DNA from: an uncultured bacterium | Lineage (GTDB): Bacteria; Cyanobacteriota; Vampirovibrionia; Gastranaerophilales; Gastranaerophilaceae | Reading direction: 5' to 3' | Assembly (NCBI GenBank): GCA_949286885.1 | Contig: CASEEG010000024.1 | Span: 1 to 35,269 of the forward strand | DNA: 35,269 nucleotides | In this document: piece after piece, positions 5,978 through 35,269 of the stretch | How the letters are laid out: each line of letters starts with the position of its first letter | How positions within the stretch are numbered: position 1 is the first letter of the stretch | Made by a program: the position numbers and the translations under genes | The notes under the pieces: model-generated | The model's input: only the letters and a program-made list of their open reading frames with translations | Told to the model about the DNA's origin: nothing | The model's database searches: none

Positions 5978-7330
5978 ATGAGCAACTACATTGAAAGCGT
6001 ACTGGAAATTACGAAGAAAAAAAATCCATCAGAAAAAGAGTTTATTCAAGCAGTTAGTGAAGTTCTTGAAACATTAAAACCTATGGTATCAAGACATGGA
6101 GAGTTTGAAAAATCATCGCTTCTTGAAAGACTAGTTGAACCCGAAAGAATAATAAGCTTTAGAGTCCCTTGGATAGACGACAATGGAAAAGTACAGGTAA
6201 ATAGAGGCTATAGAGTTCAATTCAACGGAAGTATAGGCCCTTACAAAGGCGGTTTAAGATTTCACCCCAGTGTAAATCAAAGTATAATGAAATTTTTAGC
6301 ATTTGAACAAATTTTTAAAAATGCCCTAACAGGCTTACCAATAGGCGGCGGCAAAGGAGGCTCTGATTTTGACCCAAAAGGTAAATCTGACAGAGAAATA
6401 ATGAATTTTTGTCAAAGCTTTATGAACGAACTTCAAAGACACATAGGTCACGATTTAGATGTGCCTGCCGGTGATATTGGCGTTGGTGCAAGAGAAATCG
6501 GGTATCTGTTTGGTCAATATAGAAAAATTAAAAACACATTTGAAGCAGGGGTACTAACAGGAAAAGGTCTTGAATACGGCGGCTCTTTGGCAAGAAAAGA
6601 AGCTACAGGCTATGGACTAATATATTACATGCGAGAAATGCTAAAAACAAATAACAAAAATTTTCAAGGAAAGATAGTTACAATATCAGGCTCAGGCAAT
6701 GTTGCAATATATGCAGCAGAAAAAGTTGCACAATACGGTGCAAAAGTAGTAGCAATGAGTGATTCAAACGGATGTATATATGATAAAAACGGTATTGATC
6801 TGGACGAAGTAAAACGTATTAAAGAAGTAGAACGCTTAAGAATCAAAGAATATCTAAAAAAATATCCACATGCTGAGTATATCGAGAACAAGGAGGGTGA
6901 AACACCAGCGGTATACACTATTAAAGCGGATATATCATTACCATGCGCCACGCAAAATGATATTAACTTAAAAACAGCTCAAATCATGGTGAAAAACGGT
7001 ATAATTGCAGTGGGAGAAGGTGCGAATATGCCGACAGATATAGAAGCAATAAATTATTTCCTGCAAAACGGTGTTCTTCTGGCTCCGGCGAAAGCAGCAA
7101 ATGCGGGTGGAGTTGCAACATCAGCTCTTGAAATGTGTCAAAACAGCATGAGATATTTTTGGACATTCGATGAAGTTAACAAAAAATTAGACGACATCAT
7201 GACAAACATATTTAAAGCATGTAAAGAGACTGCTGACGAATACGGACTAGGAATAAATTATGTTGCAGGTGCAAATATTGCTGCATTTAAAAAAGTCTCA
7301 GCAGCAATGATGGCACAAGGTGTAATATAA
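5978..7330 (+). CDS. gdhA: NADP-type glutamate dehydrogenase
   Basis: It interconverts glutamate and 2-oxoglutarate plus ammonia, and is a main entry of ammonium into amino acids in the cytoplasm. 450 aa matches the hexameric small-subunit class. Visible features are GPYKGGLRFHPSV (about 87-99), the catalytic lysine in GGGKGG (Lys126), PAGDIGVGAREIG with the catalytic Asp (about 166), the dinucleotide-binding GSGNVA (238-243), and the late GGVATSALEM region. A strong AGGAG precedes the ATG. It is monocistronic: its own promoter upstream and a terminator downstream. NADP rather than NAD preference is inferred from overall similarity to GdhA. Confidence 0.96.
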   Translation: MSNYIESVLEITKKKNPSEKEFIQAVSEVLETLKPMVSRHGEFEKSSLLERLVEPERIISFRVPWIDDNGKVQVNRGYRVQFNGSIGPYKGGLRFHPSVNQSIMKFLAFEQIFKNALTGLPIGGGKGGSDFDPKGKSDREIMNFCQSFMNELQRHIGHDLDVPAGDIGVGAREIGYLFGQYRKIKNTFEAGVLTGKGLEYGGSLARKEATGYGLIYYMREMLKTNNKNFQGKIVTISGSGNVAIYAAEKVAQYGAKVVAMSDSNGCIYDKNGIDLDEVKRIKEVERLRIKEYLKKYPHAEYIENKEGETPAVYTIKADISLPCATQNDINLKTAQIMVKNGIIAVGEGANMPTDIEAINYFLQNGVLLAPAKAANAGGVATSALEMCQNSMRYFWTFDEVNKKLDDIMTNIFKACKETADEYGLGINYVAGANIAAFKKVSAAMMAQGVI

Positions 7331-7358: not shown

Positions 7359-7389
7359 AAATAAGCCCGTCAGTTTGGCGGGCTTATTT
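7359..7389. terminator. Bidirectional terminator between gdhA and the membrane-protein gene
   Basis: An 11-bp stem AAATAAGCCCG/CGGGCTTATTT (7359-7369 with 7379-7389), loop 9 nt. Its right arm overlaps the stop codon (7388-7390) of the minus-strand gene. Confidence 0.85.
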
Positions 7390-9019
7390 ATTTAAAACAA
7401 TCTTGAGCAACTATACTATAAACACCATCATCACCAAGCACAGGTTCATTTTGCAACTCGATAATAAATCTTTTACTTTGACTATTTAAGTTTTGTTGTT
7501 TTTCAGCTTCCAATTGCTTTTGAAGCGCAACTTTTTTCTCAGTAACTCTTCTGTTATAAGCAGGCAAAAGAACACCGAGGGAAATAATAGAAAACCCAAG
7601 ACTTACTAATTGACAAATTGACCTCATATTTTTGTCTTTTGGCAGTACTTCATCAAAAGATTTGAGTGTCGTATTTTTAACCCAATCAATAGCTTTGGTA
7701 AAAGAAGAAGCGGACTTACCTGAATCACCCAATCTGTTTAAAAGTTTTACATCTGGTTTGACTTTTTCTATTAAACTTGCTGCCGCTTTTCCTGCATAAT
7801 CACCCAAAAAATAAAGTCCTGCAAATGATGCCATATCTCTTACGGTACTCTCTCTCAACTCGTTTGGATCTTCAGAAGCAAATATTCTGCTTACGAAGGT
7901 TGCAGTGGCAATCCAGCGACATTGATCCAATGTCGGAAACATACCTTTAAACTGAAACATGGATAAAGAAGGTTTTTTCATCATTGATAATAGTGCCAAA
8001 GATACCATTGCTCCTGCGGCGAGAAGTTTTTTAGAAAAGAAACCAGCCTTTTGTGCAGAATTCATTTCTTGATAAGTATTTTCTTTACCAAAATCTTTAT
8101 AAATCGGCGCACCTTTTTGCTTATATTTATGACGTGTAATAGCTCTATTGATTGATTGTACAGACATGGCAAGCGGAATAATAATGCCAAGACCAAGCAA
8201 ACTTTTTTGGTTAATTAATTTTTTTGCTTGCGCAGAAAAGTTTCCAAGATCGGTTCTTACAGACTTGTTCATAAACTTAGAAGCAACATCAACACTATCA
8301 CGCAGTAATTCGGAAATATTTGAACCAAACTGTTTGTGATTAAGATTATCAAAACTTAGAATTTCTCCAGCATGTGTTAAATCGGTTATTGCACCTGCGA
8401 CACCCGAAAGTATTGTATTTCTTGTTTTTCGATCTGATCCGGCATTAAAAACGAGATTGGTTAAAGTTTCTGTAATACTATCCAATCTTTGATTGTCAAT
8501 TACATCAGAAAATCTGACCCATTTATCTCCATCTCGACCGTTTAAGGATGTTAATATTTTATTAAAGTATGTCTTAATCTCGCCCTTAGTTGTTACATCT
8601 GATGTATGATCAATAGATTCTTTAAAAAAAGCAACAAACTTATCTATGCTGGCACTATCAGCCCAGGAAGATGACATATCAACACCTTTGAAAGTCTTTG
8701 CGATAGTTAAATTATTTAGCAACTTTACAACACCAAGAACGACAAAAGACGGCATTAAACAATTTACAAACAAACCGGAGAACTCTCTTCGCATAGTTTC
8801 CATAGCAGCAGGAACACCTGTCTTGACTAAATCAAAAATAGTTCTTGGAACATCGGTAGCCACAGAATCAGTAACAGCAACACCAATCATAGGATACTTG
8901 TCGCACATTTGCAAACCTTTTGTAGCGATATCAAGAAACGAGCCGCCTTTAAAATTTTGTTTGCACTCTATAGAATTACTTTTCAAGTATTTATTGTTAT
9001 TTATTGATGAAACATTCAT
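7388..9019 (-). CDS. Unknown membrane protein (543 aa)
   Basis: I do not recognise the family. The first 28 residues are Asn/Ser-rich and end in QNFKGG, not a signal peptide. Hydrophobic segments are seen near residues 89-104 (LMPSFVVLGVVKLL), about 273-290 (LLGLGIIIPLAMS), 329-346 (LLAAGAMVSLALL) and close to the C-terminus (about 480-500, LGFSIISLGVLLPAY). They alternate with long polar, helix-rich parts. The last 40 residues are charged. It stands alone between two terminator/promoter-bounded units. A membrane-associated structural or envelope role is possible, but nothing in the sequence names it. No Shine-Dalgarno sequence precedes the ATG. Confidence 0.7.
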   Translation of the reverse strand: MNVSSINNNKYLKSNSIECKQNFKGGSFLDIATKGLQMCDKYPMIGVAVTDSVATDVPRTIFDLVKTGVPAAMETMRREFSGLFVNCLMPSFVVLGVVKLLNNLTIAKTFKGVDMSSSWADSASIDKFVAFFKESIDHTSDVTTKGEIKTYFNKILTSLNGRDGDKWVRFSDVIDNQRLDSITETLTNLVFNAGSDRKTRNTILSGVAGAITDLTHAGEILSFDNLNHKQFGSNISELLRDSVDVASKFMNKSVRTDLGNFSAQAKKLINQKSLLGLGIIIPLAMSVQSINRAITRHKYKQKGAPIYKDFGKENTYQEMNSAQKAGFFSKKLLAAGAMVSLALLSMMKKPSLSMFQFKGMFPTLDQCRWIATATFVSRIFASEDPNELRESTVRDMASFAGLYFLGDYAGKAAASLIEKVKPDVKLLNRLGDSGKSASSFTKAIDWVKNTTLKSFDEVLPKDKNMRSICQLVSLGFSIISLGVLLPAYNRRVTEKKVALQKQLEAEKQQNLNSQSKRFIIELQNEPVLGDDGVYSIVAQDCFK

Positions 9020-17663: not shown

Positions 17664-18356
17664 CTAATTAAAAAATCTGTAATAGAAAAGAGTAAAAATT
17701 GCTTCAATAGCATCTTTTGCCTTAACTTTTTTACCCTCTTTGTATGCCCTGGGGTTGTAAGAAATTGGGACTTCCTTTAATCTAAGTTTTTTCCTCAAAA
17801 TTTTAGCCGTAATTTCAGGCTCAAAATCAAACCTCTTCGCATTAATTTTGATATCACTAATACATTCACGCTTAAATGCTTTGTAACAAGTCTCCATATC
17901 GGTCAATTTTGAACCAAACAGGGTGTTTGTAAGAAAAGTTAAAAATTTATTTGCAAGGAAGCTTAAAAATAAAAAAGAGCTATCTTGCGAGCGTTCTTTT
18001 AAACGTGAGCCATAGACAACATCAGCTTTATCGCAAAGGATTAGAGGTAAAAGTCTTGAATAGTCTGAAGGATTATATTCAAAATCAGCATCTTGTATAA
18101 CAACAATATCGGCACTAGCATGGGCGAGTCCTAAAGATATTGCTGCACCTTTACCAATGTTACGTTCTTGAGTCAGCACAAGATGCTCATTATATTTGGA
18201 AAGAATTTCTGCGGTGGAGTCTGTTGAACAATCATCAACAAGTATCAATCTTTTTTTCAGGGAACAAAAATCAGCAGACTCGACCCTTTCAATAACTTTT
18301 TTTATTGTTTTTTCTTCATTGTATACAGGAATAATAATATCTATTGTTTTGTACAT
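17664..18356 (-). CDS. GT2 glycosyltransferase, dolichol/polyprenyl-phosphate sugar synthase-like
   Basis: 230 aa, GT-A fold. IIIPVYNEEKTI (about 7-18), the metal/nucleotide Asp pair in LVDDCSTDST (about 40-49), GKGAAISLGLAHA and the DADFEYNP segment (about 90-97) match the DPM1/polyprenyl-phosphate mannosyl- or glucosyltransferase branch of family 2. No C-terminal membrane segments, so it is a soluble catalytic domain like DPM1. It would charge a lipid carrier with a sugar for envelope glycans (family knowledge; the donor is unknown). It lies between the TadE-like gene and rsmH in the same direction, which suggests co-transcription. Confidence 0.85.
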   Translation of the reverse strand: MYKTIDIIIPVYNEEKTIKKVIERVESADFCSLKKRLILVDDCSTDSTAEILSKYNEHLVLTQERNIGKGAAISLGLAHASADIVVIQDADFEYNPSDYSRLLPLILCDKADVVYGSRLKERSQDSSFLFLSFLANKFLTFLTNTLFGSKLTDMETCYKAFKRECISDIKINAKRFDFEPEITAKILRKKLRLKEVPISYNPRAYKEGKKVKAKDAIEAIFTLFYYRFFN

Positions 18357-18395
18357 ATATAGATAATATCAAAATATAGAGAAAAAAACATCAAA

Positions 18396-18863
18396 TTAAA
18401 ATTTTTCTATAGAATGTACGGGGGTAGTGGTAAGCGTTTTCCCTTCTCTAAAGAGAAAAATTCCACAGTATCTATATGCAACACTAATGTCAAAGCCGCT
18501 GTTGTTATAATCTGGCAAATTGAGAAAAACAACCAACGCACTTTGATTCTGTTTCTTAAAATCAGAAGATATTGTGTAAGAACCGTTTGAACCTGAAACG
18601 TTAAAACCTGAGTCGGAAAGATTAAGCAAGGAAGAAGACTTTTTAACCTGATCCAGTGCAGCATCTAACACCTCTTGTTCAGAGTCAGCGTTTTGGACAA
18701 TGGGTTGAAGATTAGAAGTGATCTCATTTGCTATATTTGACACACTGTATTGCGCACGCCAATACAATCCAAGTTCAACTATTGCAAGGAAAATTGACAT
18801 TGTAACCAAAAAAACAAAAACAAATTCAATAATATTTTGCGCCAACCTTTGGGAACGAGTCAT
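18396..18863 (-). CDS. TadE-like pseudopilin protein
   Basis: 155 aa. A short basic N-terminus (MTRSQRLAQN) is followed by a hydrophobic helix about 11-33 that begins with the Phe/Glu pattern IIEFVFVF, as in TadE/TadF proteins, and continues with ELGLYWRAQYSVSNIANEI. The rest is periplasmic and beta-rich. TadE-like proteins assist type IVb (Flp/Tad) pili. No other tad gene is in the window, so the pilus context cannot be tested. Its ATG overlaps the preceding stop (ATGA), indicating translational coupling to the 122-aa gene. Confidence 0.7.
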   Translation of the reverse strand: MTRSQRLAQNIIEFVFVFLVTMSIFLAIVELGLYWRAQYSVSNIANEITSNLQPIVQNADSEQEVLDAALDQVKKSSSLLNLSDSGFNVSGSNGSYTISSDFKKQNQSALVVFLNLPDYNNSGFDISVAYRYCGIFLFREGKTLTTTPVHSIEKF

Positions 18864-19232: not shown

Positions 19233-19592
19233 TTAAACCATCATAACAGAATTATCACTCTCGCACATGCTTTTTGTAATATGCATTAATTTTGTCATAT
19301 CACCATTGCAATATTGGGAAGCAATTTTTTTCAATGATGTCATTATAATATCCGAATTAGAATAAGCTGTCCTGTAAAAGAACTTTTTGCCTTGTTTAAT
19401 TCTAAGCAAAACTTCCTTTTCAAAAAGCCTGTCCATAACTGTCTTTATAGTAGTATATGCCCGTTTTGAAGAGTCAGTCCTTGAAAGGAATTCATAAACA
19501 TCCTTTACGGAATTTTTGTAGATTCCTGCTTTTTCAAGTTCCCACATTGCATTCAAAATTATACTTTCTAACGAACCATGTTTAAAATTCAT
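19233..19592 (-). CDS. BlaI/MecI/CopY-family transcriptional repressor
   Basis: 119 aa. It has a winged helix with the family pattern LESIILNAMWELEKAG (about 8-23), VKDVYEFL, and AYTTIKTVMDRLFEKEVLLR (about 44-63), followed by a basic wing (KQGKKFFYRTAYS) and a dimerising C-terminus. Members repress beta-lactamase, mecA or copper genes and are often cleaved by a BlaR1 sensor; no BlaR1, beta-lactamase or copper gene is here. It is second in a minus-strand run that includes the wall genes, so regulation of its own operon is a reasonable but untested idea. AAGGA precedes the ATG. Confidence 0.85.
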   Translation of the reverse strand: MNFKHGSLESIILNAMWELEKAGIYKNSVKDVYEFLSRTDSSKRAYTTIKTVMDRLFEKEVLLRIKQGKKFFYRTAYSNSDIIMTSLKKIASQYCNGDMTKLMHITKSMCESDNSVMMV

Positions 19593-19607: not shown

Positions 19608-19946
19608 TTAATATCTTGTTGTAAAATGTTCCGCATCAAACCTAACATCCGACGGACCAATATCAGTCCTGTCCCTTAATTGAAATTTATATCCTGATGT
19701 ATTTATAACAGAATTATCTTTATAAATGTACATGCCTGACTTTGTACGCACAAGCGCACTGCCCGAATCTTGTTTTTTTGTTGACGATACAGTATTATCC
19801 AGTAAATCCAACACTCTATGCCCCGGCATTTTATGAGTGTTTATGAAATTGGTCTGTTTTTTGCATCCGCAAATAAAACAACATAAACACAATACCAGCA
19901 ATACACAAAGTAGTCTATTTACAGTTTTTTGTCCAACAATAACCAT
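19608..19946 (-). CDS. Small putative lipoprotein
   Basis: 112 aa. Residues 1-27 form a basic start and a Cys-rich hydrophobic core ending ICGC, with Cys28 a plausible lipidation site. The mature part (about 85 residues) is polar, with no domain I recognise; the C-terminus is DVRFDAEHFTTRY. It is the first gene of the minus-strand run leading to the division cluster. AGGA lies 6 nt before the ATG and a TATAAT about 20 nt before it. If exported, it would be anchored by Lgt, whose gene is elsewhere in this window. Confidence 0.7.
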   Translation of the reverse strand: MVIVGQKTVNRLLCVLLVLCLCCFICGCKKQTNFINTHKMPGHRVLDLLDNTVSSTKKQDSGSALVRTKSGMYIYKDNSVINTSGYKFQLRDRTDIGPSDVRFDAEHFTTRY

Positions 19947-19965
19947 TATTAATCCTATTACTACT

Positions 19966-19971
19966 ATTATA
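19966..19971 (-). promoter_or_regulatory. Candidate -10 for the lipoprotein/BlaI/TadE/dcw run
   Basis: TATAAT on the minus strand, 19 nt before the lipoprotein ATG; the -35 is weak. The first promoter-like site upstream of an 11-gene co-directional run. Confidence 0.45.
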
Positions 19972-20009
19972 ACACTTATTAAAAAAAATTAAATACTGCC
20001 TTAAATATT

Positions 20010-20038
20010 TTTACAAAAGACAAAAAATATAGTAGAAT
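20010..20038 (+). promoter_or_regulatory. Promoter of the GT6 gene
   Basis: TTTACA (20010-20015), a 17-bp spacer, and TAGAAT (20033-20038), both 5/6 to consensus. Confidence 0.6.
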
Positions 20039-20059: not shown

Positions 20060-20854
20060 ATGAACATAGGCATTTTATACATTGCTACAGGAAGATACAT
20101 ATGCTTCTGGAATGAATTTTACAAAAGTGCTAAGGAACACCTTTTTACAAATCATAACGTCCGTTTTTTTATATACACCGACGCTCCTGAAATAGATTAT
20201 GAAAATAATGAAGATGTAACAAAACTTTTTGCTCAATCGTCAAAGTGGCCAATAAGTGTATGTGACAAGTATGCTATCCTTTTAAGCGGAAAAAAGTTTT
20301 ACGATGAAATGGACTATCTGTTTCATTTTAACGCTAATATGAAATTTGTTGCACCAATAGGTGATGAAATTTTACCTAACAAAGACCATGGATATATCTG
20401 CGTTGGGGAATGGCTAAATCATAAGTTAAAATCCACTCCTGACAAATTTCCGTATGAGAGAAATCCTAATTCTCTTGCATGTATTCCTCAAGGACGAGGG
20501 GAACACTATTTTATGGGCGGAGTTCATGGAGGCAGAAAAAGAGAATATCTCAACATGTGCCAAGAACTAGAAAATTCAATCAGAAGAGATTTTAAAAACG
20601 GAATTATAGCAATTTGGCATGATGAAAGTCATATAAACAAATATATGCTTGATAAAAACCCTTTAATAATTCCACCCGAGTACGCAATTCCTGAAAATTG
20701 GAGATACAAGGGGTATATTAATAACAGAAAAGGTTTGCTACTTGATAAAAAACACTGGAAGTACGGAGGTCATTCGTATCTTAGGGGTATAACAGACAAA
20801 AAGATTACCCCTGTAAAATATTGGATTTCAAAACTAATGAATATCAACTTTTAG
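20060..20854 (+). CDS. Family 6 glycosyltransferase (ABO/alpha-Gal transferase family), bacterial type
   Basis: 264 aa. GT6 enzymes transfer Gal or GalNAc in alpha-1,3 linkage to a galactoside. The metal-binding DxD of animal enzymes is NAN here (Asn91-Ala-Asn93 in FHFNANMKF), the change known from bacterial GT6 such as that of Bacteroides ovatus, which work without metal. YFMGGVHGGR (about 151-160) and WHDESHINKY (186-195) are the acceptor and catalytic motifs. No N-terminal membrane anchor, as in other bacterial members. Start: ATG 20060 has GGAG 5 nt before; a GTG two codons earlier lies in that site. Product probably a host-like surface glycan (inference). Convergent with the GT8 gene, 4-bp overlap. 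Confidence 0.9.
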   Translation: MNIGILYIATGRYICFWNEFYKSAKEHLFTNHNVRFFIYTDAPEIDYENNEDVTKLFAQSSKWPISVCDKYAILLSGKKFYDEMDYLFHFNANMKFVAPIGDEILPNKDHGYICVGEWLNHKLKSTPDKFPYERNPNSLACIPQGRGEHYFMGGVHGGRKREYLNMCQELENSIRRDFKNGIIAIWHDESHINKYMLDKNPLIIPPEYAIPENWRYKGYINNRKGLLLDKKHWKYGGHSYLRGITDKKITPVKYWISKLMNINF

Positions 20855-21780
20855 TGATTAAATTCAAGGTTTTTTATTATCCTCATAAAATCATGTATTC
20901 TTTCTTTTTTCCTAAAAAAGAATGGGTACATTTTAAGAAACCAAAGAATTTGAAAAATCTTGTTATTAAACAAATTAATTACACACTTGTTTAAAAACTC
21001 ACTTTTGTCATTAGCATACGGTGTAAAAGAATAGTATTTCCAAAAAAGTTTACGAAAAGGATTGTAAAATCCAATTTTCCAGGGCTTTACTCCTGCAAAA
21101 TGCACAATCGTAGGTGCAGCACTGCAGCTAAAATAAAAATTCGGCGTTATAAAGTTATATTCTCTATCCAGTTGGTGCACACAACCTAATAAAACAGCAT
21201 TCATAACATCTTGATCACAATAACTTAATTTATCCCAATTTGACATAAGATAGTCAAACATTTTTTTCTCAATACCGTCTGCACGCATCTTCGCTAAATC
21301 TAAAAGACAAACCCCAGCATTGAAATAAAAATTTTTATCATTAAATTCAAAATTCATCCTTTTCATGTGTTCCCCGTAAGCTAAGTCAGGAACGCAGGCT
21401 GCGTATTCGTTTTCCTCCAACTTAATATCAAAAAGCTTTTCAAGACTTTTTAAGACAATCAAGTCACAATCCAGATACAAAATCTTGTCAACATTTTCCA
21501 GTAAAGAAGGTAAAATTAGTCTATATAATGTCGGCACAGTAACATTTTTACACACACCATTGTTAAAATATGGCAAGAAAATAGAATTATCTACCCTGTG
21601 TAACACGACACCATTAATAGAATCAAGTTTAAGAATATTTTCCTCTGATAGCTCACTATATAAAATATGAAAAACAAACTCGACATCAAAAGACTTATTA
21701 TGAAGAATACTGCAAATAACAGTTGCTGCATACCTTGCGTAATTATCATCAGTTGACAAACATACATCTAGCTTTTTCAT
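20851..21780 (-). CDS. Family 8 glycosyltransferase (LgtC/galactosyl- or glucosyltransferase-like)
   Basis: 309 aa. It begins LDVCLSTDDNYARYAATVICSI, the usual GT8 first strand, with the nucleotide-sugar/metal motif DCD at 104-106 (ILYLDCDLIV), a FYFNAGVCLLDL segment (about 150), YCDQDVMNAVL, and HFAGVKPW (about 240-250), all hallmarks of retaining GT8 enzymes. The C-terminus is basic and aromatic, as in membrane-associated LPS enzymes. With the flanking GT6 and GT2 genes it probably builds an oligosaccharide on LPS or capsule (inference). It overlaps the GT6 gene tail-to-tail by 4 bp and diverges from the GT2 gene over a 39-bp gap. Confidence 0.9.
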   Translation of the reverse strand: MKKLDVCLSTDDNYARYAATVICSILHNKSFDVEFVFHILYSELSEENILKLDSINGVVLHRVDNSIFLPYFNNGVCKNVTVPTLYRLILPSLLENVDKILYLDCDLIVLKSLEKLFDIKLEENEYAACVPDLAYGEHMKRMNFEFNDKNFYFNAGVCLLDLAKMRADGIEKKMFDYLMSNWDKLSYCDQDVMNAVLLGCVHQLDREYNFITPNFYFSCSAAPTIVHFAGVKPWKIGFYNPFRKLFWKYYSFTPYANDKSEFLNKCVINLFNNKIFQILWFLKMYPFFFRKKERIHDFMRIIKNLEFNH

Positions 21781-21819: not shown

Positions 21820-22806
21820 ATGGAATTAAAACCAAAAATCAGTGTTATCATGCCGGTATATAATACACCCGAAGAAGAGTTTAGACAGTCTTTAGAAAGT
21901 ATTTTCAATCAAACATTTAAAGATTTTGAACTAATTATAATTGATGATTGTTCTAAAGGTAATATACAGGAAATTATTGAAAGCTATGCTGACACAAGAA
22001 CAATTTACATAAGAAATGAAAAAAATCTCGGAGTTACAGGTTCGCTAAACAAAGGTTTAGAAATAGTAAGAGGGGAATTCATTGCAAGAATGGACTCTGA
22101 TGACATTTCATTACCTGAGAGATTTGAAAAACAAATTGCATATTTTGAAAACAATCCCAATATAAGTATACTGGGTACTGCAATTGAGAAATTTCCAAAA
22201 AAAGAGATCGTTAAATTTCCTTTGGAAGACAATGAAATAAAATACACCCTTATTTTTTCGCATAGCTGCCTGGCACATCCAAGCATTATGATTAGAAAAA
22301 GCGTAGTGGATGAATATAAAATACGCTACAGCGAAAAAAATGTGGTATGTGAGGACTACGGCCTATGGCTTGAGTTATGCGATAAGTTAAATTTCGCCAA
22401 TCTTGACGAGGTTTTGTTAAAATACAGGTGGCACAAGAACAGTATTTCAAAGAGAAAAACGCTTATACAAAGTGCCGGTTCGCAAAAATTGATGATAAAA
22501 GCTCAAGCAAAATACTTTGGCATAGATTCTGCTGACGCAATTAATGTTATAGATAAGCATATGGAAAACAAAATAATAACCTCAAATGATTTGAATATGC
22601 TTTTGAACTTCATTCTGCAATCAAAATATTTGCTTGAAAAGGAAAAACCGGAGTTTAAATACGGTGTAAACAGAGTATTTTTTAAAGATTTTTTAAGGAA
22701 ATGCGTCACTGATATCGATTTCATAAAAATACTATTCTCACAAGAATTAAACGAAATAATCAAACTAACTGGCACTGAAAAAATTGGCATGATTTTAGGT
22801 TTTTAA
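21820..22806 (+). CDS. Family 2 glycosyltransferase
   Basis: 328 aa. An N-terminal GT-A domain: ISVIMPVYNTPEEEF (7-21), the Asp pair IIIDDCSKG (about 39-47), NLGVTGSLNKGLE, and the DxD region ARMDSDDISLPER (about 89-101). CEDYGLWLEL (about 183-192) supplies the catalytic ED. The last 100 residues are helical without membrane segments. Substrate unknown. It shares the patch with the GT6 and GT8 genes. Its stop overlaps the uvrC stop region by 4 bp on the opposite strand. Confidence 0.9.
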   Translation: MELKPKISVIMPVYNTPEEEFRQSLESIFNQTFKDFELIIIDDCSKGNIQEIIESYADTRTIYIRNEKNLGVTGSLNKGLEIVRGEFIARMDSDDISLPERFEKQIAYFENNPNISILGTAIEKFPKKEIVKFPLEDNEIKYTLIFSHSCLAHPSIMIRKSVVDEYKIRYSEKNVVCEDYGLWLELCDKLNFANLDEVLLKYRWHKNSISKRKTLIQSAGSQKLMIKAQAKYFGIDSADAINVIDKHMENKIITSNDLNMLLNFILQSKYLLEKEKPEFKYGVNRVFFKDFLRKCVTDIDFIKILFSQELNEIIKLTGTEKIGMILGF

Positions 22807-24467
22807 ATGGTCATATTTTTTGATCGTAGCTGCCTGTGAAAAGTAATTGCAAATCTGTGTGCTTCGTCTCTTATTCTTTGGAACAGATGAAGAGCCGGGG
22901 AATTAACGGGGAAAACAACCGGTTTAGATTGATTTGACAAGAAAACCTCTTCCTCTCGCTTAGCTAAAGAAACAATGTCCAAATCTAATCCCATTTCATT
23001 CATAACTTCAATTACACTTGAAAGCTGTCCTTTTCCTCCGTCAATAATTATAAGATCAGGTGGGGGAACATCGCCATTTTTAATGCGTCTAAAACGCCTC
23101 TTTAATATCTCGCGCATACTTTTAAAATCATCAACCTCACCTTTTTTTATAGTTTTTAGCTTGTATTTTCTATATTTTGATTTCTTAGGCATACCATTTT
23201 CGAAACAAACACCTGAAGCTACAGTATTTGTTCCTTGTGTATGTGAAATATCGTAACATTCAATGACATGGGGGAATTTTTTCAAATTTAGCTTTTCCAT
23301 TAAATATGTTCCGACCTCATTATATTCATTTTGTATATTTGATAATTCCTTCAACTTCGCTTGTTCAAGATTAAATTCTGCAGTATTTTGCGCCATTTGA
23401 AGCATTTCTTTGTCACGGGCGGATTTTGCAACATTAATTTTTACACTTTTGCCAAGTCTGCCACTGAGCCATTTCTCATATAATTCAAGGTCATCAAGTT
23501 GATAAGATAATGTGATTTTTGTGGGAATTTCGGTATCTGTAATTATTGCGTAATATTCCCTTAAAACAGCTTGGATTATTTCACTGGGATCTTCAGATGA
23601 AGAATTTGCATAATGACTAAAGGCAAAATCCTTCTTGTTGATTAATCTACCTTGTCTGACTTGTAAAATTGTTGCACAATGAAGATTATCGGATTTTACA
23701 ATCCCTACAAAATCCTGATTGATTTTTGTATTTTCACTGACAACCTTCTGTTTTTCCATGGTTTTTTTTATATCGTTATAACTGTCACGATATCTTGCGG
23801 CTTTCTCAAATTCTAAATTATCACTCGCACTTTTCATTTCACATTCGAGCACTTTAAGTAATTCATTTTGCCTGCCCGACAAAAACAGTTCAACATCATT
23901 TAATATTTTTTTGTATTCATCACTTGATATAAGCTTCTGACATGGAGCACAACACTGACCAATATCATAATACAGGCAGGGACGGCTCTTGAATTTCGGG
24001 GTTTTACATTTTTTAAGCGGAAAAATTTTTCCCAATGTTTCAAGTGTACAATACATAGCGCGAGAATCGGTATAAGGACCAAAATACTTACCTTTCTGCA
24101 TGTTCTTGTTAGCTTTTCTAACTACGGTAATACGCGGATATTCTTCATCGGTTATAAGAAAATAAGGAAACTTTTTATCATCCTTAAGAAGTATGTTATA
24201 CTTTGGCTTATATTTTTTTATAAGTTCAGACTCCAAGATTAAAGCTTCTACCTCGGTATTAACAACAATACATTCAACGCGAGCAATCTGGGGCACCATA
24301 ACCTGAAGCTTTGGGGAATCTTTCTTCCCGACAAAATAACTGTTAACACGATTGTAAAGATTTTTTGCTTTACCAATATATATAATCTCACCGGTATTAT
24401 CAAAATACTGATAACAACCGGGAAGCTTGGGCATTAGCTTTATTTGTTGTCTGATATCAGTGCTCAT
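22803..24467 (-). CDS. uvrC: Excinuclease ABC subunit C lacking the C-terminal HhH domain
   Basis: UvrC makes the two incisions of nucleotide-excision repair. 554 aa, against about 600 in most bacteria. Present: the GIY-YIG nuclease (about 8-90; GCYQYF, EIIYIGKAKNLYNRV), a Cys cluster (CLYYDIGQCCAPC, about 165), the UVR motif (EFEKAARYRDSYNDI), and the RNase-H-like nuclease with ECYDISHTQG, LIIIDGGKGQL and IRDEAHRFAITFHR. It then stops after LRSKNMTI, where the tandem helix-hairpin-helix domain should follow. In the same frame beyond the stop there is no HhH-like sequence. Start: ATG 24467 overlaps the DUF192 stop by 11 nt; no clear Shine-Dalgarno sequence. Confidence 0.93.
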   Translation of the reverse strand: MSTDIRQQIKLMPKLPGCYQYFDNTGEIIYIGKAKNLYNRVNSYFVGKKDSPKLQVMVPQIARVECIVVNTEVEALILESELIKKYKPKYNILLKDDKKFPYFLITDEEYPRITVVRKANKNMQKGKYFGPYTDSRAMYCTLETLGKIFPLKKCKTPKFKSRPCLYYDIGQCCAPCQKLISSDEYKKILNDVELFLSGRQNELLKVLECEMKSASDNLEFEKAARYRDSYNDIKKTMEKQKVVSENTKINQDFVGIVKSDNLHCATILQVRQGRLINKKDFAFSHYANSSSEDPSEIIQAVLREYYAIITDTEIPTKITLSYQLDDLELYEKWLSGRLGKSVKINVAKSARDKEMLQMAQNTAEFNLEQAKLKELSNIQNEYNEVGTYLMEKLNLKKFPHVIECYDISHTQGTNTVASGVCFENGMPKKSKYRKYKLKTIKKGEVDDFKSMREILKRRFRRIKNGDVPPPDLIIIDGGKGQLSSVIEVMNEMGLDLDIVSLAKREEEVFLSNQSKPVVFPVNSPALHLFQRIRDEAHRFAITFHRQLRSKNMTI

Positions 24468-24801
24468 CAATATACATTTTATCACCAATTTTAATATCTA
24501 AAAATACATTTACAATTTCAACCGCAAATTTTGCACCAAAAACAGGTTTTAAAATTAAAAAAGGTGGAATATTATTTTTGTAAGCGATTACATTGTAATT
24601 ACCATCCAGAAACACAACATCAAATCTGAAAAAACAGAAAAGTGAATGGATCCAAAAGGCATTTTTAAAAATAAGGATTTTTTTGCCCTTTGGTTTAGGC
24701 TGAAACATTAACCCCAAAAATCTTTTTAGAAAGGACTCTTGCAGGAATACATCCGCTATAATTGGTTTATTGTTTAAAAATATTTTAATATTTCTATTCA
24801 T
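24457..24801 (-). CDS. DUF192 family protein
   Basis: 114 aa. The fold-defining stretches are ADVFLQESFLKRFLGLMFQ (about 16-34; RGLM in most members, here RFLGLM), the IHSLFCFFRFDVVFLDGNYNV segment (about 51-71), and the C-terminal KFAVEIVNVFLDIKIGDKM, where other DUF192 proteins have the very similar A-EL--G----G-G-KV pattern. Family role is unknown, though many members are exported; no signal peptide is visible here. It is translated into uvrC with an 11-nt overlap, so the two are in one operon, which does not make them related in function. Confidence 0.85.
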   Translation of the reverse strand: MNRNIKIFLNNKPIIADVFLQESFLKRFLGLMFQPKPKGKKILIFKNAFWIHSLFCFFRFDVVFLDGNYNVIAYKNNIPPFLILKPVFGAKFAVEIVNVFLDIKIGDKMYIDEH

Positions 24802-31755: not shown

Positions 31756-34700
31756 TTAGTTCAGCCAGTTAAAACTTTTAACATAGTCATCCGAATTAAG
31801 TTTTCCATTAATTTTAGCCAAAAACAATCTAAAATCATCACCTGAAATCTCAATTAAAGGAATTTTATTGACATTCTCAATAATTTGAGACTTCGCACCT
31901 TCTTTAATTTTATTGCCCGTTAAAGTACTCAAAAGGGTGTTAAGAGAAGCATTACCTGCTGCACCCAAAACATTGCTGACCTTTTTCGACAACCTTCCCA
32001 GAATTTGTATATCTGCATTATCATTAATAACATCGTAACCACCATAAATAAATAAACTCAAATTATCACCTTTTGAAAATATTTCAAGAGAACTTATTTT
32101 GCCGTTGTGAATGTCAAAACTACCTTTTATGGCAGAAAATTCACCCGTCTTGTATGGAGTTAAGACTTCAATTAAATTATTAAGGGTTAGCCCGAATATA
32201 CCGCTTTTTATTAAATTACCCGCTCTTAAGAGATATTCTAGGGATCCCAGCTTTGGCATCTTACCGTTATTAACACTAAAATTAACCCTGCCCGTTACAA
32301 GTCTCAATTCCTGGGCATTTTCCGGGATTTTACCCTTAAGATTTATTTTTGCATTTGTCCTACCGTATATCTGATTTTGCAGACCGAGGAAATTTGTACT
32401 TAAAATATTTGCGTCACAATCGCTAACAACAGAATTGACATCAAATAATAAAGAAGAAATGTCAAAATTACCGCTTGTTTTAACAGTGCCGTCAGCAATA
32501 TCAAACTGCATATTATCAATATTTAATATATCACCCGTAGGATTAGAAAAATCCATACTCAAATTTTGTGCCTTGATTTCGTACAACTCAACCTCATCAG
32601 CACTTGCATGGCCTTTCAATATTAAAAAATCGTTAGGTTTAAAAACAATTGGTTGTCCTGGTACAATATCGACAGAATCTTTTGGTATTTGGGAAATACC
32701 TTCTATAAGTTGTGATAGACTTGTTTTTTTTGAAATAACTTCTATATTTTTTACAACGATTGGAAAGCTTTGTTTATTTGTGATACTTGCATCTATCTGT
32801 ACATCAGAATCAAAACTCTTGCCACGGATAAATGCTAAAATTGTATTTTTGTTTATATCAAGATCCATATCATTAATTTTTGTACTATATAGTGGAATAT
32901 TAATATTTCGGAATTTAATGTTACCAATAGCATGCGGCAACAAAACATTACCGTTTAAGTTCAAATCACAAGTAAAAAGTCCTTGTTTTAAGACTGATTT
33001 TTTGAACAAAATATTGAAAATCTTTGCCGTAACAGGACTATTCGTAACAATTCTGAAATTGTCAAAATTCAATTCTTTACCTTTTGAAACAACAGCGCCA
33101 TTGGCTTTAAGCATGTTAACTGCGCTGAGCTTATTATTTTGCGATGGGATGTATTTAATATATCTAAGGCCGGAAATTTTTGCCGTATTTTTTGTAAAAT
33201 CAGCCTTAAGTTCAAATTCTCTTAAATGCTCCATATCGCCAATATTTGCACCCATATAGGTAATATCTGTATCTTTCGGAAGGGTTAAGTAGGAAATAAG
33301 ACTGTAATTATTTATACCGCCTTTTATACGCCCTTTGAGCACAATTTCACCCTTTACTTTAAAAGGATATGTCAAATACGGGTTTATAAGTTTATCAACC
33401 GAAAATTCATTCAAATTTGTTGAAAACATAGCATTAAAAGACGGCTTTTTACTTATAAAATCCTTTAAGACGGCATCAAAATATATAGGTGCATTACCAT
33501 AACTAAAATTAAGAGCGTCCAGGAAAACTTTGTCGCCCGCAAATTTTAAAGCACCGCTTTTAAGCTCAAGGGGCAGCTGCTGTTTTTTATTATAAGCACC
33601 TATGCCCCCAATATTTAATTTACCATACGGGCGATTATTTCTAATATCTAAATTTGCATCAACAGTACCCTTAAAATCGGAAAAATCGTCCAATAAGGTT
33701 TTAAATAAACCTATATTTATATAGTTTGAAATTTCCTGAAAATTATTGAGAGAAAAAGACTTGACAGCAAATTTCAAATTCGCCTTTGGCTTCTTAAGAA
33801 AATTTGTGACCTCGCCGTTTGTGTAAAAATCCGCATCCAAAATCCTTACATGAGAGTTATAAATTTTAATTTTAGAATTTTGTGCAACATACTTACCACT
33901 TGTAAAAATAATGTTTTTAGACTTATTTGTATTAAGCGGAATAAATTCACCATCGATGCTTAACTGTGAATAATTTATCTTAGAAAAATCAGCAGGGACA
34001 ACACCCTTTATTTTACCTCTTGCATTGAATAAAAACTCAATAGCATTAACAGGAAGAGCATAAGATGCAAATTTTAGATTGTTATTACCAAAATAGTTTT
34101 GTTCTTTTATAAATTCAAGCAATGAGGAGAATTGCATTGAGTCCACACCTGTATTCAAATCAATTTTTAACTTTGCATCTTTATTGCATAAATCCTTTGT
34201 ACTGGGTGTGACAATTCCTAAAAGAGTTGTTGCAGAACCCTTAAAATTGCCCTTCAAGTCAATATTAAAATTATTTGAAAATGCTATTTTTCCTTTTAAA
34301 TCGTTAATTGGTAAACTTGGAGTCAGCATGACATCCACACTTTTTAATTTAATTTCACCAGTCGGCGAAATATAATTCAAAAAGTCAAGTCCCTCAAGGC
34401 TTTTTGCTTTACCTTTAAAAAATAATGCAATATCCGTTTTACCCTTTGCAGATTTTATAAAAGAAAGATCACCGGTTATAGATTTTGCAATCTTACTGGT
34501 TTTTGCGATTTGAATGGCATATTTAGCATCCAAGTTTGCAATTTTTGCAGTAACATTAAGATTGTTGTAATCATCAGCAAATCCAAATATTGTAACCTTA
34601 CCATCGTTGATATTTGCATCCGTATTAACAATATCTATAACCTTTCCGTTAAAATCAAGTTCTATCTTACCATTATTTAATTCAGCATTTAAACCTTCAA

Positions 34701-35269
34701 GGGACGCAGTAATATTTCTGCCGAAAAATTTACCATTAACAAAAGCATCATATATAGTGCCTTTTGTCTTAATATTTATTTTCCCAAATCCGGAAAGTTT
34801 CATAAAAGGTAGTGGACCAAGCTTAAAACCAATAACCCTTTGAACAGGTATAAGATACTTATGCGCAAATTCCAAATCGACGTTATCAGAAGATACAACA
34901 TCGTATTCACCTGCTTGTTTGCCATACAATTCAGAATATCCTTTTACACTGACATACTGAGAATTTGGCCCTGGAACCATAACGTCAACCTTTACCTTGT
35001 CGCCAATAAAATTACACTTTACATTAGCAGTAGCAAAGTTAACAGGCTTTTTAAATAGATAAATATCATTAACTAATAGATTACCGTTAATATCAGGTTT
35101 TAAATAATTCCCCGAAATGTTCAGTTCTCCCGAAAATTTTGCATAAGGATTTGCATGAATAAGCTCGTTTATTAAATCAGTCTTATACACAACAACTCCT
35201 GCTGGTATAAGCTTAATAAATTTAATAAAATCACAGTCATCAACTTTTAAATCAATATCTAACAAACGT
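31756..35269 (-). CDS. AsmA/TamB-like large envelope protein, 3' part (5' end outside window)
   Basis: About 1170 visible residues; the frame runs off the right edge. It is nearly all short beta strands with repeated patterns of NxNG, KGxxK and LxGxxxI type, as expected of the AsmA/TamB/YhdP superfamily that spans the periplasm and carries lipids or aids outer-membrane assembly. The C-terminus has the AsmA-like end: GRVNFSVNNGKMPKLGSLE, GLTLNNLIEVL, KGSFDIHNGKISSLEIFSKG and a final basic/hydrophobic tail. No hydrophobic N-terminal anchor can be seen because the start is missing. It implies a two-membrane envelope. Confidence 0.8.
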   Translation of the reverse strand, partial: RLLDIDLKVDDCDFIKFIKLIPAGVVVYKTDLINELIHANPYAKFSGELNISGNYLKPDINGNLLVNDIYLFKKPVNFATANVKCNFIGDKVKVDVMVPGPNSQYVSVKGYSELYGKQAGEYDVVSSDNVDLEFAHKYLIPVQRVIGFKLGPLPFMKLSGFGKINIKTKGTIYDAFVNGKFFGRNITASLEGLNAELNNGKIELDFNGKVIDIVNTDANINDGKVTIFGFADDYNNLNVTAKIANLDAKYAIQIAKTSKIAKSITGDLSFIKSAKGKTDIALFFKGKAKSLEGLDFLNYISPTGEIKLKSVDVMLTPSLPINDLKGKIAFSNNFNIDLKGNFKGSATTLLGIVTPSTKDLCNKDAKLKIDLNTGVDSMQFSSLLEFIKEQNYFGNNNLKFASYALPVNAIEFLFNARGKIKGVVPADFSKINYSQLSIDGEFIPLNTNKSKNIIFTSGKYVAQNSKIKIYNSHVRILDADFYTNGEVTNFLKKPKANLKFAVKSFSLNNFQEISNYINIGLFKTLLDDFSDFKGTVDANLDIRNNRPYGKLNIGGIGAYNKKQQLPLELKSGALKFAGDKVFLDALNFSYGNAPIYFDAVLKDFISKKPSFNAMFSTNLNEFSVDKLINPYLTYPFKVKGEIVLKGRIKGGINNYSLISYLTLPKDTDITYMGANIGDMEHLREFELKADFTKNTAKISGLRYIKYIPSQNNKLSAVNMLKANGAVVSKGKELNFDNFRIVTNSPVTAKIFNILFKKSVLKQGLFTCDLNLNGNVLLPHAIGNIKFRNINIPLYSTKINDMDLDINKNTILAFIRGKSFDSDVQIDASITNKQSFPIVVKNIEVISKKTSLSQLIEGISQIPKDSVDIVPGQPIVFKPNDFLILKGHASADEVELYEIKAQNLSMDFSNPTGDILNIDNMQFDIADGTVKTSGNFDISSLLFDVNSVVSDCDANILSTNFLGLQNQIYGRTNAKINLKGKIPENAQELRLVTGRVNFSVNNGKMPKLGSLEYLLRAGNLIKSGIFGLTLNNLIEVLTPYKTGEFSAIKGSFDIHNGKISSLEIFSKGDNLSLFIYGGYDVINDNADIQILGRLSKKVSNVLGAAGNASLNTLLSTLTGNKIKEGAKSQIIENVNKIPLIEISGDDFRLFLAKINGKLNSDDYVKSFNWLN

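Follow-up and report, generated by a model that had tools for sequence, protein, structure and literature searches.

A family 6 glycosyltransferase with an altered pocket segment, conserved in a genus of uncultured Gastranaerophilales

The 35,269-nucleotide stretch of DNA analyzed here (the window; contig CASEEG010000024.1 of assembly GCA_949286885.1, from an uncultured bacterium of the Gastranaerophilales) encodes a glycosyltransferase of family 6 (GT6), the family of the human ABO transferases. The gene is a real GT6 enzyme and mostly a further member of this known family; its one new feature is a pocket segment that carries a Trp throughout the genus where the enzyme BoGT6a of Bacteroides ovatus has His-Pro, a change that weakens any simple ABO claim and leads to a specific prediction that can be tested. 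The data show the family, the fold, the residues, the fixed synteny and low divergence ratios in three pairs; activity, metal independence, donor, change of acceptor and carrier glycan are inferred. The reading we favor, tentatively and at close to an even chance, is that of an active, metal-independent, retaining alpha-galactose (alpha-Gal) or alpha-N-acetylgalactosamine (alpha-GalNAc) transferase that acts on a glycan of the lipopolysaccharide (LPS) type, with an acceptor other than the fucosyl-alpha2-galactose (Fuc-alpha2-Gal) of BoGT6a and the ABO enzymes. The acceptor probably differs because His-Pro has become Trp-aliphatic. The sugar would move from its uridine diphosphate (UDP) conjugate to a cell-surface glycan, most likely of LPS type, because the window genome has matches to LpxC and to a Wzy_C-type ligase or polymerase, each found in 14 of the 15 genomes of the genus.

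Family, fold, and catalytic residues

The gene and the codons discussed below, all on the + strand, are as follows.

20060–20854, +: GT6 glycosyltransferase gene, 264 aa (Pfam, phmmer, AlphaFold2 model, structural match)
20330–20338, +: codons of N91-A92-N93, the NxN in place of DxD, opposite BoGT6a N95-A96-N97
20411–20425, +: codons of W118-L119-N120-H121-K122, the segment opposite BoGT6a HPxFY (MAFFT alignment; phmmer puts L119 opposite the His)
20624–20626, +: codon of E189, equivalent of the catalytic Glu192 of BoGT6a (alignment)
20747–20749, +: codon of K230, equivalent of the diphosphate-binding Lys231 of BoGT6a (alignment)

The reading frame is intact, from ATG 20060 to TAG 20852–20854. 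The open reading frame listing offers GTG 20054 as an alternative start; ATG 20060 is favored because GGAG precedes it and the start positions of the relatives agree. A first-pass annotation had called a GT6 at exactly these coordinates, and every comparison bears this out. Pfam profile PF03414 matches with E 2.2e-35 (122.4 bits, against a cut-off of 25), and BoGT6a is the best phmmer match among solved structures (E 2.2e-50; human ABO enzymes follow from about 2e-27). The AlphaFold2 model, built on an alignment (A2) of 60 of 81 sequences (the window and the best 80 of 196 relatives), has a mean predicted local distance difference test score (pLDDT) of 95.0 and a predicted template modeling score (pTM) of 0.92. 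Its fold is GT-A, matching BoGT6a (4cj8) at Z 34.1 and a root mean square deviation of 1.3 over 240 residues, the ABO enzymes at about Z 30, and the bovine enzyme alpha3GT (1k4v) at Z 29.5. These E-values, the pLDDT and the Z score, together with the presence of GT6 in all 15 genus genomes, place the match beyond chance. The NCBIfam model NF041524, "family 6 glucosyltransferase," gives 231.4 bits, below its curated cut-off of 250; among ten relatives scanned, L034 (235.6), L047 (230.5) and L098 (239) also fall below it, and it is passed by L043 (253.7), which has the Trp form, and by six relatives that bear His-Pro.

The NAN in place of DxD, singled out in the first-pass annotation, is present in the context FHFNANMKF, but NxN is the rule among bacterial GT6 proteins (PMC3961637; in general terms, PMC4202792) and is therefore not what is new in this gene. 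All 15 genus rows have it, with Ala as the middle residue in 11 and Ile in four, as do 63 of 66 other relatives, a count biased by the fact that one of the two search patterns behind the set contains N[AG]N. A motif-independent Pfam search of a phylum sample found GT6 in 11 of 386 genomes (five of them of the window's own genus), of which, as read from the loci, ten have NxN and one (G301) has DAD.

The catalytic Glu in WHDES and the C-terminal Lys and Arg are in place (E189, K230, R242). Glu189 would be the catalytic residue, as in BoGT6a, and Asn91, Lys230 and Arg242 would replace the role of Mn2+ in the animal enzymes; the window enzyme is probably metal independent, as had been proposed at first pass, by analogy with BoGT6a (PMC3961637). 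We mapped the BoGT6a contacts given in Table 2 of that paper onto an alignment of 84 sequences and counted residues in 15 genus rows, the sister sequence L047 and 66 others (L032, L047 and BoGT6a were kept apart in the count, and L065, whose frame is broken, was dropped from every alignment). In BoGT6a numbering, every one of the 15 genus rows retains Tyr13, Trp66, Asn95, Asn97, Asp191 and Glu192; Lys231 is retained in the 14 rows, and Arg243 in the 13, that reach those positions.

Several other sugar-contact positions are altered, as might be expected of a paralogue that has kept its fold but is inactive or in decay; this explanation is highly improbable, given that the catalytic residues are invariant in the genus, that no stop lies within any of the 15 genus copies (two are merely cut by contig ends), and that the ratio of nonsynonymous to synonymous divergence (dN/dS) is low in the three pairs that could be used (0.042, 0.020 and 0.056). 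Of the 29 pairs formed among ten genus sequences, 23 had no dS owing to saturation and three had a dS over 2. The low ratios are signs of strong purifying selection on the window type of GT6.

The pocket segment and the choice of acceptor

In BoGT6a, His122 and Thr134 contact free GalNAc, and Arg73 contacts the donor sugar (Table 2, PMC3961637). The His122 position holds Trp in all 15 genus rows and in L047, and in 0 of the 66 others, which have His (55), Gln (five), a gap (two) or Arg, Phe, Tyr and Ser (one each); this survey rests on the best 80 of 196 relatives, and Trp forms elsewhere may be missed. At the Pro123 position every genus member has an aliphatic residue, and 58 of the 66 others have Pro. 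At the Arg73 position, 13 of 15 genus rows and L047 have Lys, and all 66 others have Arg; the genus members that retain Arg are L043 and L044, an early branch. The window enzyme reads Trp-Leu by MAFFT, or Leu-Asn by phmmer, where the ABO-type acceptor segment has His-Pro, a putative determinant of specificity for Fuc-alpha2-Gal. The segment would have been rebuilt from His-Pro to Trp-aliphatic in the common ancestor of the genus and the sister genome that encodes L047.

A changed acceptor is favored because bovine alpha3GT, which reads QAWWYK at the segment where ABO-type enzymes have HPxFY, likewise lacks HP, and its acceptor, Gal-beta4-N-acetylglucosamine, carries no fucose (PMC4202792). The boldest reading follows from the same comparison: the Trp form would be a metal-independent bacterial counterpart of alpha3GT, placing alpha-Gal onto unfucosylated beta-galactosides of LPS, so that the genus would constitutively show the linear-B epitope and could be a natural source of anti-Gal. 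We consider this unlikely. As of 2014, bacterial analogues of alpha3GT were still to be characterized, according to PMC4202792.

As for the donor, Met152-Gly153-Gly154 lies opposite the MGG of the human ABBA mutant (PDB 3sx7), and Met152 leans to UDP-Gal because Met266 clashes with GalNAc in the human enzymes (PMC4692239; PMC4202792). The triplet at 266–268 is mixed, with Met as in the human B transferase (GTB) and Gly at 268 as in the human A transferase (GTA), and reading the donor from this triplet alone was given up. The donor reading also draws on the GalE match of the window genome, given below.

Several observations weigh against a shift of acceptor. That His122 takes part in acceptor binding is likely, though not firmly established, and we therefore hold our preferred reading lower, and its ABO-type rival higher, than we otherwise would. 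The alignment of the loop is uncertain by one residue, with W118 (MAFFT) or L119 (phmmer) opposite His122, neither of them His; His122 is missing from 11 of the 66 others as well; and H121, three alignment columns on, is conserved in all 15 genus rows and may substitute for the lost His. Contacts on the donor side have also changed, the Asn69 position being Ser in all 15 genus rows (variable outside, with Asp in 40 of 66) and the Thr70 position Val in 13 of 15. The Pro found in the genus at the Thr134 position is not diagnostic, because 25 of the 66 others have it too.

Fucosyltransferase genes add to these points. An ordinary ABO-type enzyme, which we regard as a serious possibility though not the one we favor, would add alpha1,3-Gal or GalNAc onto a Fuc-alpha2-Gal made by an enzyme of the alpha-1,2-fucosyltransferase family GT11 encoded elsewhere in the genome, and so produce a surface epitope of the B or A kind; the same galactose would then be bound in a different manner by the Trp segment, possibly together with His121. 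GT11 is present in all 15 genus genomes (22 of 33 genomes searched), and in the window genome Gmd (606.9 bits, cut-off 415) and GalE (451.1, cut-off 262.3) both exceed their thresholds. Within the phylum sample, GT11 occurs in 8 of the 11 GT6 genomes versus 56 of the 375 others (Fisher p 4e-5, with shared ancestry ignored); once the window's own genus is removed, the comparison is 3 of 6 versus 56 of 375 (p 0.05). The sister genome L120, which has the Trp form, shows the order GT6, GT2 (43% identical to GT2b of the window), GT11. In L121 (4477–6228) and L122 (6752–8578), longer stretches around the relatives L050 and L057, a GT2-GT11 fusion gene lies directly upstream of GT6 and overlaps it; L122 also has a gene of the GDP-mannose-dehydratase type and an epimerase that by eye resembles GDP-fucose synthase, and L123 holds GT6, GT11 and an epimerase within 10 kb. 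It is plausible from these gene orders, and the more so since the GT6 proteins of L121 and L122 retain HP, that the relatives carry a blood-group assembly line, with what looks like a compact antigen cassette in L121 and L122, and this keeps the ABO-type alternative high for the window enzyme. There is a precedent in Helicobacter mustelae, in which a predicted A/B transferase and the only predicted fucosyltransferase have consecutive locus tags and blood group A is found on LPS (PMC2846917). Against the ABO-type alternative stand the replacement of His122-Pro123 throughout the genus and the location of the GT11 genes of the window genome on contigs C56 and C4, away from GT6. In the open-access literature searched, no paper dealing with genes for GT6 or fucosyltransferases in Gastranaerophilales or Melainabacteria was found, as judged by titles and the starts of abstracts.

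We continue, tentatively, to favor an acceptor other than Fuc-alpha2-Gal. The host-like surface glycans envisaged in the first-pass annotation are a weaker proposition than before: it had named loss of acceptor-site residues and simple vertical descent as findings that would count against them, and both were found in part.

Descent, genomic site, and poly-G tracts

The window belongs to a metagenome-assembled genome (MAG) of 1.58 Mb in 128 contigs, 88.7% complete and 5.7% contaminated, of Candidatus Gastranaerophilales, an order that the NCBI taxonomy places within Candidatus Melainabacteria of the Cyanobacteriota/Melainabacteria group. The order is known from the gut, which fits the gut bacterium presumed at first pass, but the titles of the genus MAGs do not state a habitat. 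A GT6 match was found in 15 of 15 genus genomes, the window's own included (in G011 and G012 it is split over two contig ends). An x112-BlaI-x122-TadE block lies upstream of it in 13 of 13 genus loci; GT8 and uvrC follow it in all 11 genus loci not cut inside GT6, with GT2b in seven of these. The GC content of the gene is 0.337 and that of the window 0.338. In a tree of 80 rows, which left out L032, L040, L046 and L060 and in which the bootstrap was unsettled, L047 joins the 13 genus rows in one clade (100/99); L047 comes from a roe deer rumen MAG, has 47.7% identity, and is the same protein as that in G017 (family f1, another genus).

The window copy is vertically inherited within the genus, as presence in all 15 genomes, one fixed site and native GC attest. 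Recent acquisition, whether from a host animal or from an unrelated bacterium, is very unlikely. It could draw on the patchy distribution of GT6 beyond the genus, where 4 of 43 relatives have it and matches in the phylum sample are sparse, and on a cross-phylum grouping described below, but presence, synteny, GC and the tree speak against a recent transfer into the genus, and the motif is NxN, not the animal DxD. An older transfer into the lineage is neither shown nor excluded, and L047 does not date the entry.

Other GT6 proteins of the Gastranaerophilales fall elsewhere in the tree (L048/L049; L050/L057; L061; L085/L095/L098). L050 and L057 group with the alphaproteobacterial MAG sequence L054 at 100/99, the titles of all three being labelled Lapin, and L061 lies inside an otherwise alphaproteobacterial group at 96/89. 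This scatter suggests transfer among these lineages and, for L050, L057 and L054, transfer between phyla in one habitat. For the window gene, the lateral transfer thought likely at first pass is not supported; the phylogeny called for there suggests it only for these other copies. The accompanying view that bacterial GT6 genes are mostly host associated holds in part: gut MAGs are among the best 80 of 196 relatives, but so are Mucilaginibacter, Pelagibacter, Psychromonas, Chlorobaculum and Chitinophagaceae, and GT6 matches are present in cyanophage records.

Carriage of the window gene by a plasmid or phage was considered and rejected, all matches (2 plasmid and 71 phage records) being under 60% identity; a viral-contig scan with the window protein alone gave five pattern matches with no relative among them. 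No exact empty site was found. In G016 a BlaI-x122-mraW-ftsI block is adjoined by two GT2 genes, and uvrC lies at a distance of 44 kb. G019 has a different arrangement, in which 6 kb separate BlaI from uvrC.

Two observations on individual sequences may be added. L015 and L010 (from G011 and G007) have a common unusual central block and differ near the N terminus, which by eye looks like recombination within the genus. L077, trimmed to 300 aa, comes from a Dysgonamonadaceae GT6 frame (from 6001) that is 953 residues long and perhaps a fusion of GT6.

The features around the gene are the following.

19233–19592, −: BlaI/MecI-type repressor (13 of 13 genus loci)
19608–19946, −: small protein whose start resembles a lipobox by eye, the upstream neighbor (13 of 13 genus loci)
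20010–20038, +: possible sigma70-type GT6 promoter, TTTACA 20010–20015, 17-base spacer, TAGAAT 20033–20038 (recurs in the genus)
20851–21780, −: GT8 glycosyltransferase, convergent with GT6 (profile match and genus synteny)
21820–22806, +: GT2 glycosyltransferase (GT2b; 7 of the 11 genus loci reaching past GT6)
22803–24488, −: uvrC, right border of the glycosyltransferase group (11 of 11 genus loci reaching it)

A promoter scan of the window alone did no better than chance (two sites against a shuffle mean of 1.7), and the candidate promoter is credible solely because it recurs: all 14 genus sequences (the window and 13 loci) have, ahead of the start, TTTACA, then 17 bases of spacer and then a hexamer that resembles TATAAT (4 to 6 of 6 matches), a pattern chosen post hoc. 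Farther upstream, at 19957–19979, lies the block ATTACTACTATTATAACACTTAT, whose core ATTATAACACTT is found in 13 of the 14; this may be the promoter from which the x112-BlaI operon is divergently transcribed. The neighbors in the window are housekeeping genes (mraW, an ftsI-type gene, a Mur ligase, a gene of the 5-enolpyruvylshikimate-3-phosphate synthase family, uvrC and a pterin-binding gene of the dihydropteroate synthase type), and these, with the same gene order recurring in the genus, indicate that the contig is not a stray one. At 17664–18863 (−), a GT2 and a TadE-like gene separate x122 from mraW in the genus; in the sister genus (G016) mraW comes directly after x122. Frames of 543 aa (7388–9019, −) and 1169 aa (31756–35265, −) have no Pfam match at E 0.001.

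A different picture was seen in sister lineages and one alphaproteobacterial MAG, where GT6 genes carry poly-G tracts within the coding sequence at two sites, with 9–14 G.

L032 (G377), 1969–1982: 14 G, frame broken
L048 (G147, the same as L030), 6460–6472: 13 G at the same place, frame open
L050, 6432: 11 G
L057, 6432: 9 G
L054 (alphaproteobacterial), 1463: 9 G

Across nine non-genus loci (88 kb) taken as Gastranaerophilales, with L095 excluded, there are 11 runs of 9 or more, spread over six loci, versus 0.011 expected from composition. This suggests, at the level of sequence, that GT6 of the sister lineages makes a phase-variable surface glycan, with homopolymer assembly errors as another possible source of the length differences. 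In the 150 kb of the 13 genus loci no run of G or of C reaches 9; the window likewise has no such run, and G9 is absent from both strands of its genome. The idea that the window GT6 is phase-variable through G or C tracts is therefore rejected. Two GT6 architectures can be distinguished: the window type, which is single-copy at a fixed housekeeping site, has the Trp segment and lacks homopolymers, versus the poly-G type elsewhere. On phase variation, the open-access literature searched yielded a single paper, on flagellin.

Comparison with known systems

It has long been asked which gut bacteria display sugars resembling those of the ABO or alpha-Gal epitopes and in this way train natural antibodies. 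To this question the present data add a whole uncultured genus with a conserved GT6 and a changed pocket segment, and sister genera with canonical GT6 genes beside genes of a fucosyltransferase family and with poly-G tracts that suggest on-off switching. The Trp form offers a natural experiment on the part that this segment plays when ABO-family enzymes select their acceptor.

The closest known system is BoGT6a (PDB 4ayj, 4cj8), with which the window enzyme shares about 38–40% identity, the GT-A fold, NAN, the catalytic Glu and the C-terminal Lys and Arg; it differs in having Trp-Leu for His122-Pro123, Lys for Arg73, Ser for Asn69, Val for Thr70 and Pro for Thr134, and its C-terminal tail is longer than the crystallized BoGT6a chain. 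The other Gastranaerophilales proteins (L048, L049, L050 and L057) likewise have NxN and come from the same order, but they keep HP, fall in separate clades of the tree, and have poly-G in three of the four genes. With human GTA and GTB the window enzyme shares the family, the fold and the WHDES catalytic motif; the human enzymes have DxD with Mn2+ and an HPSFY segment, whereas the window enzyme has neither membrane anchor nor stem. Bovine alpha3GT, the alpha-Gal or linear B synthase, also has the GT6 fold and a Trp-bearing segment without HP. It differs in its DxD with Mn2+, in a donor loop that reads HAA where the window enzyme has MGG, and in having two Trp residues in the segment where the window enzyme has one, neither of them aligned residue for residue with W118.
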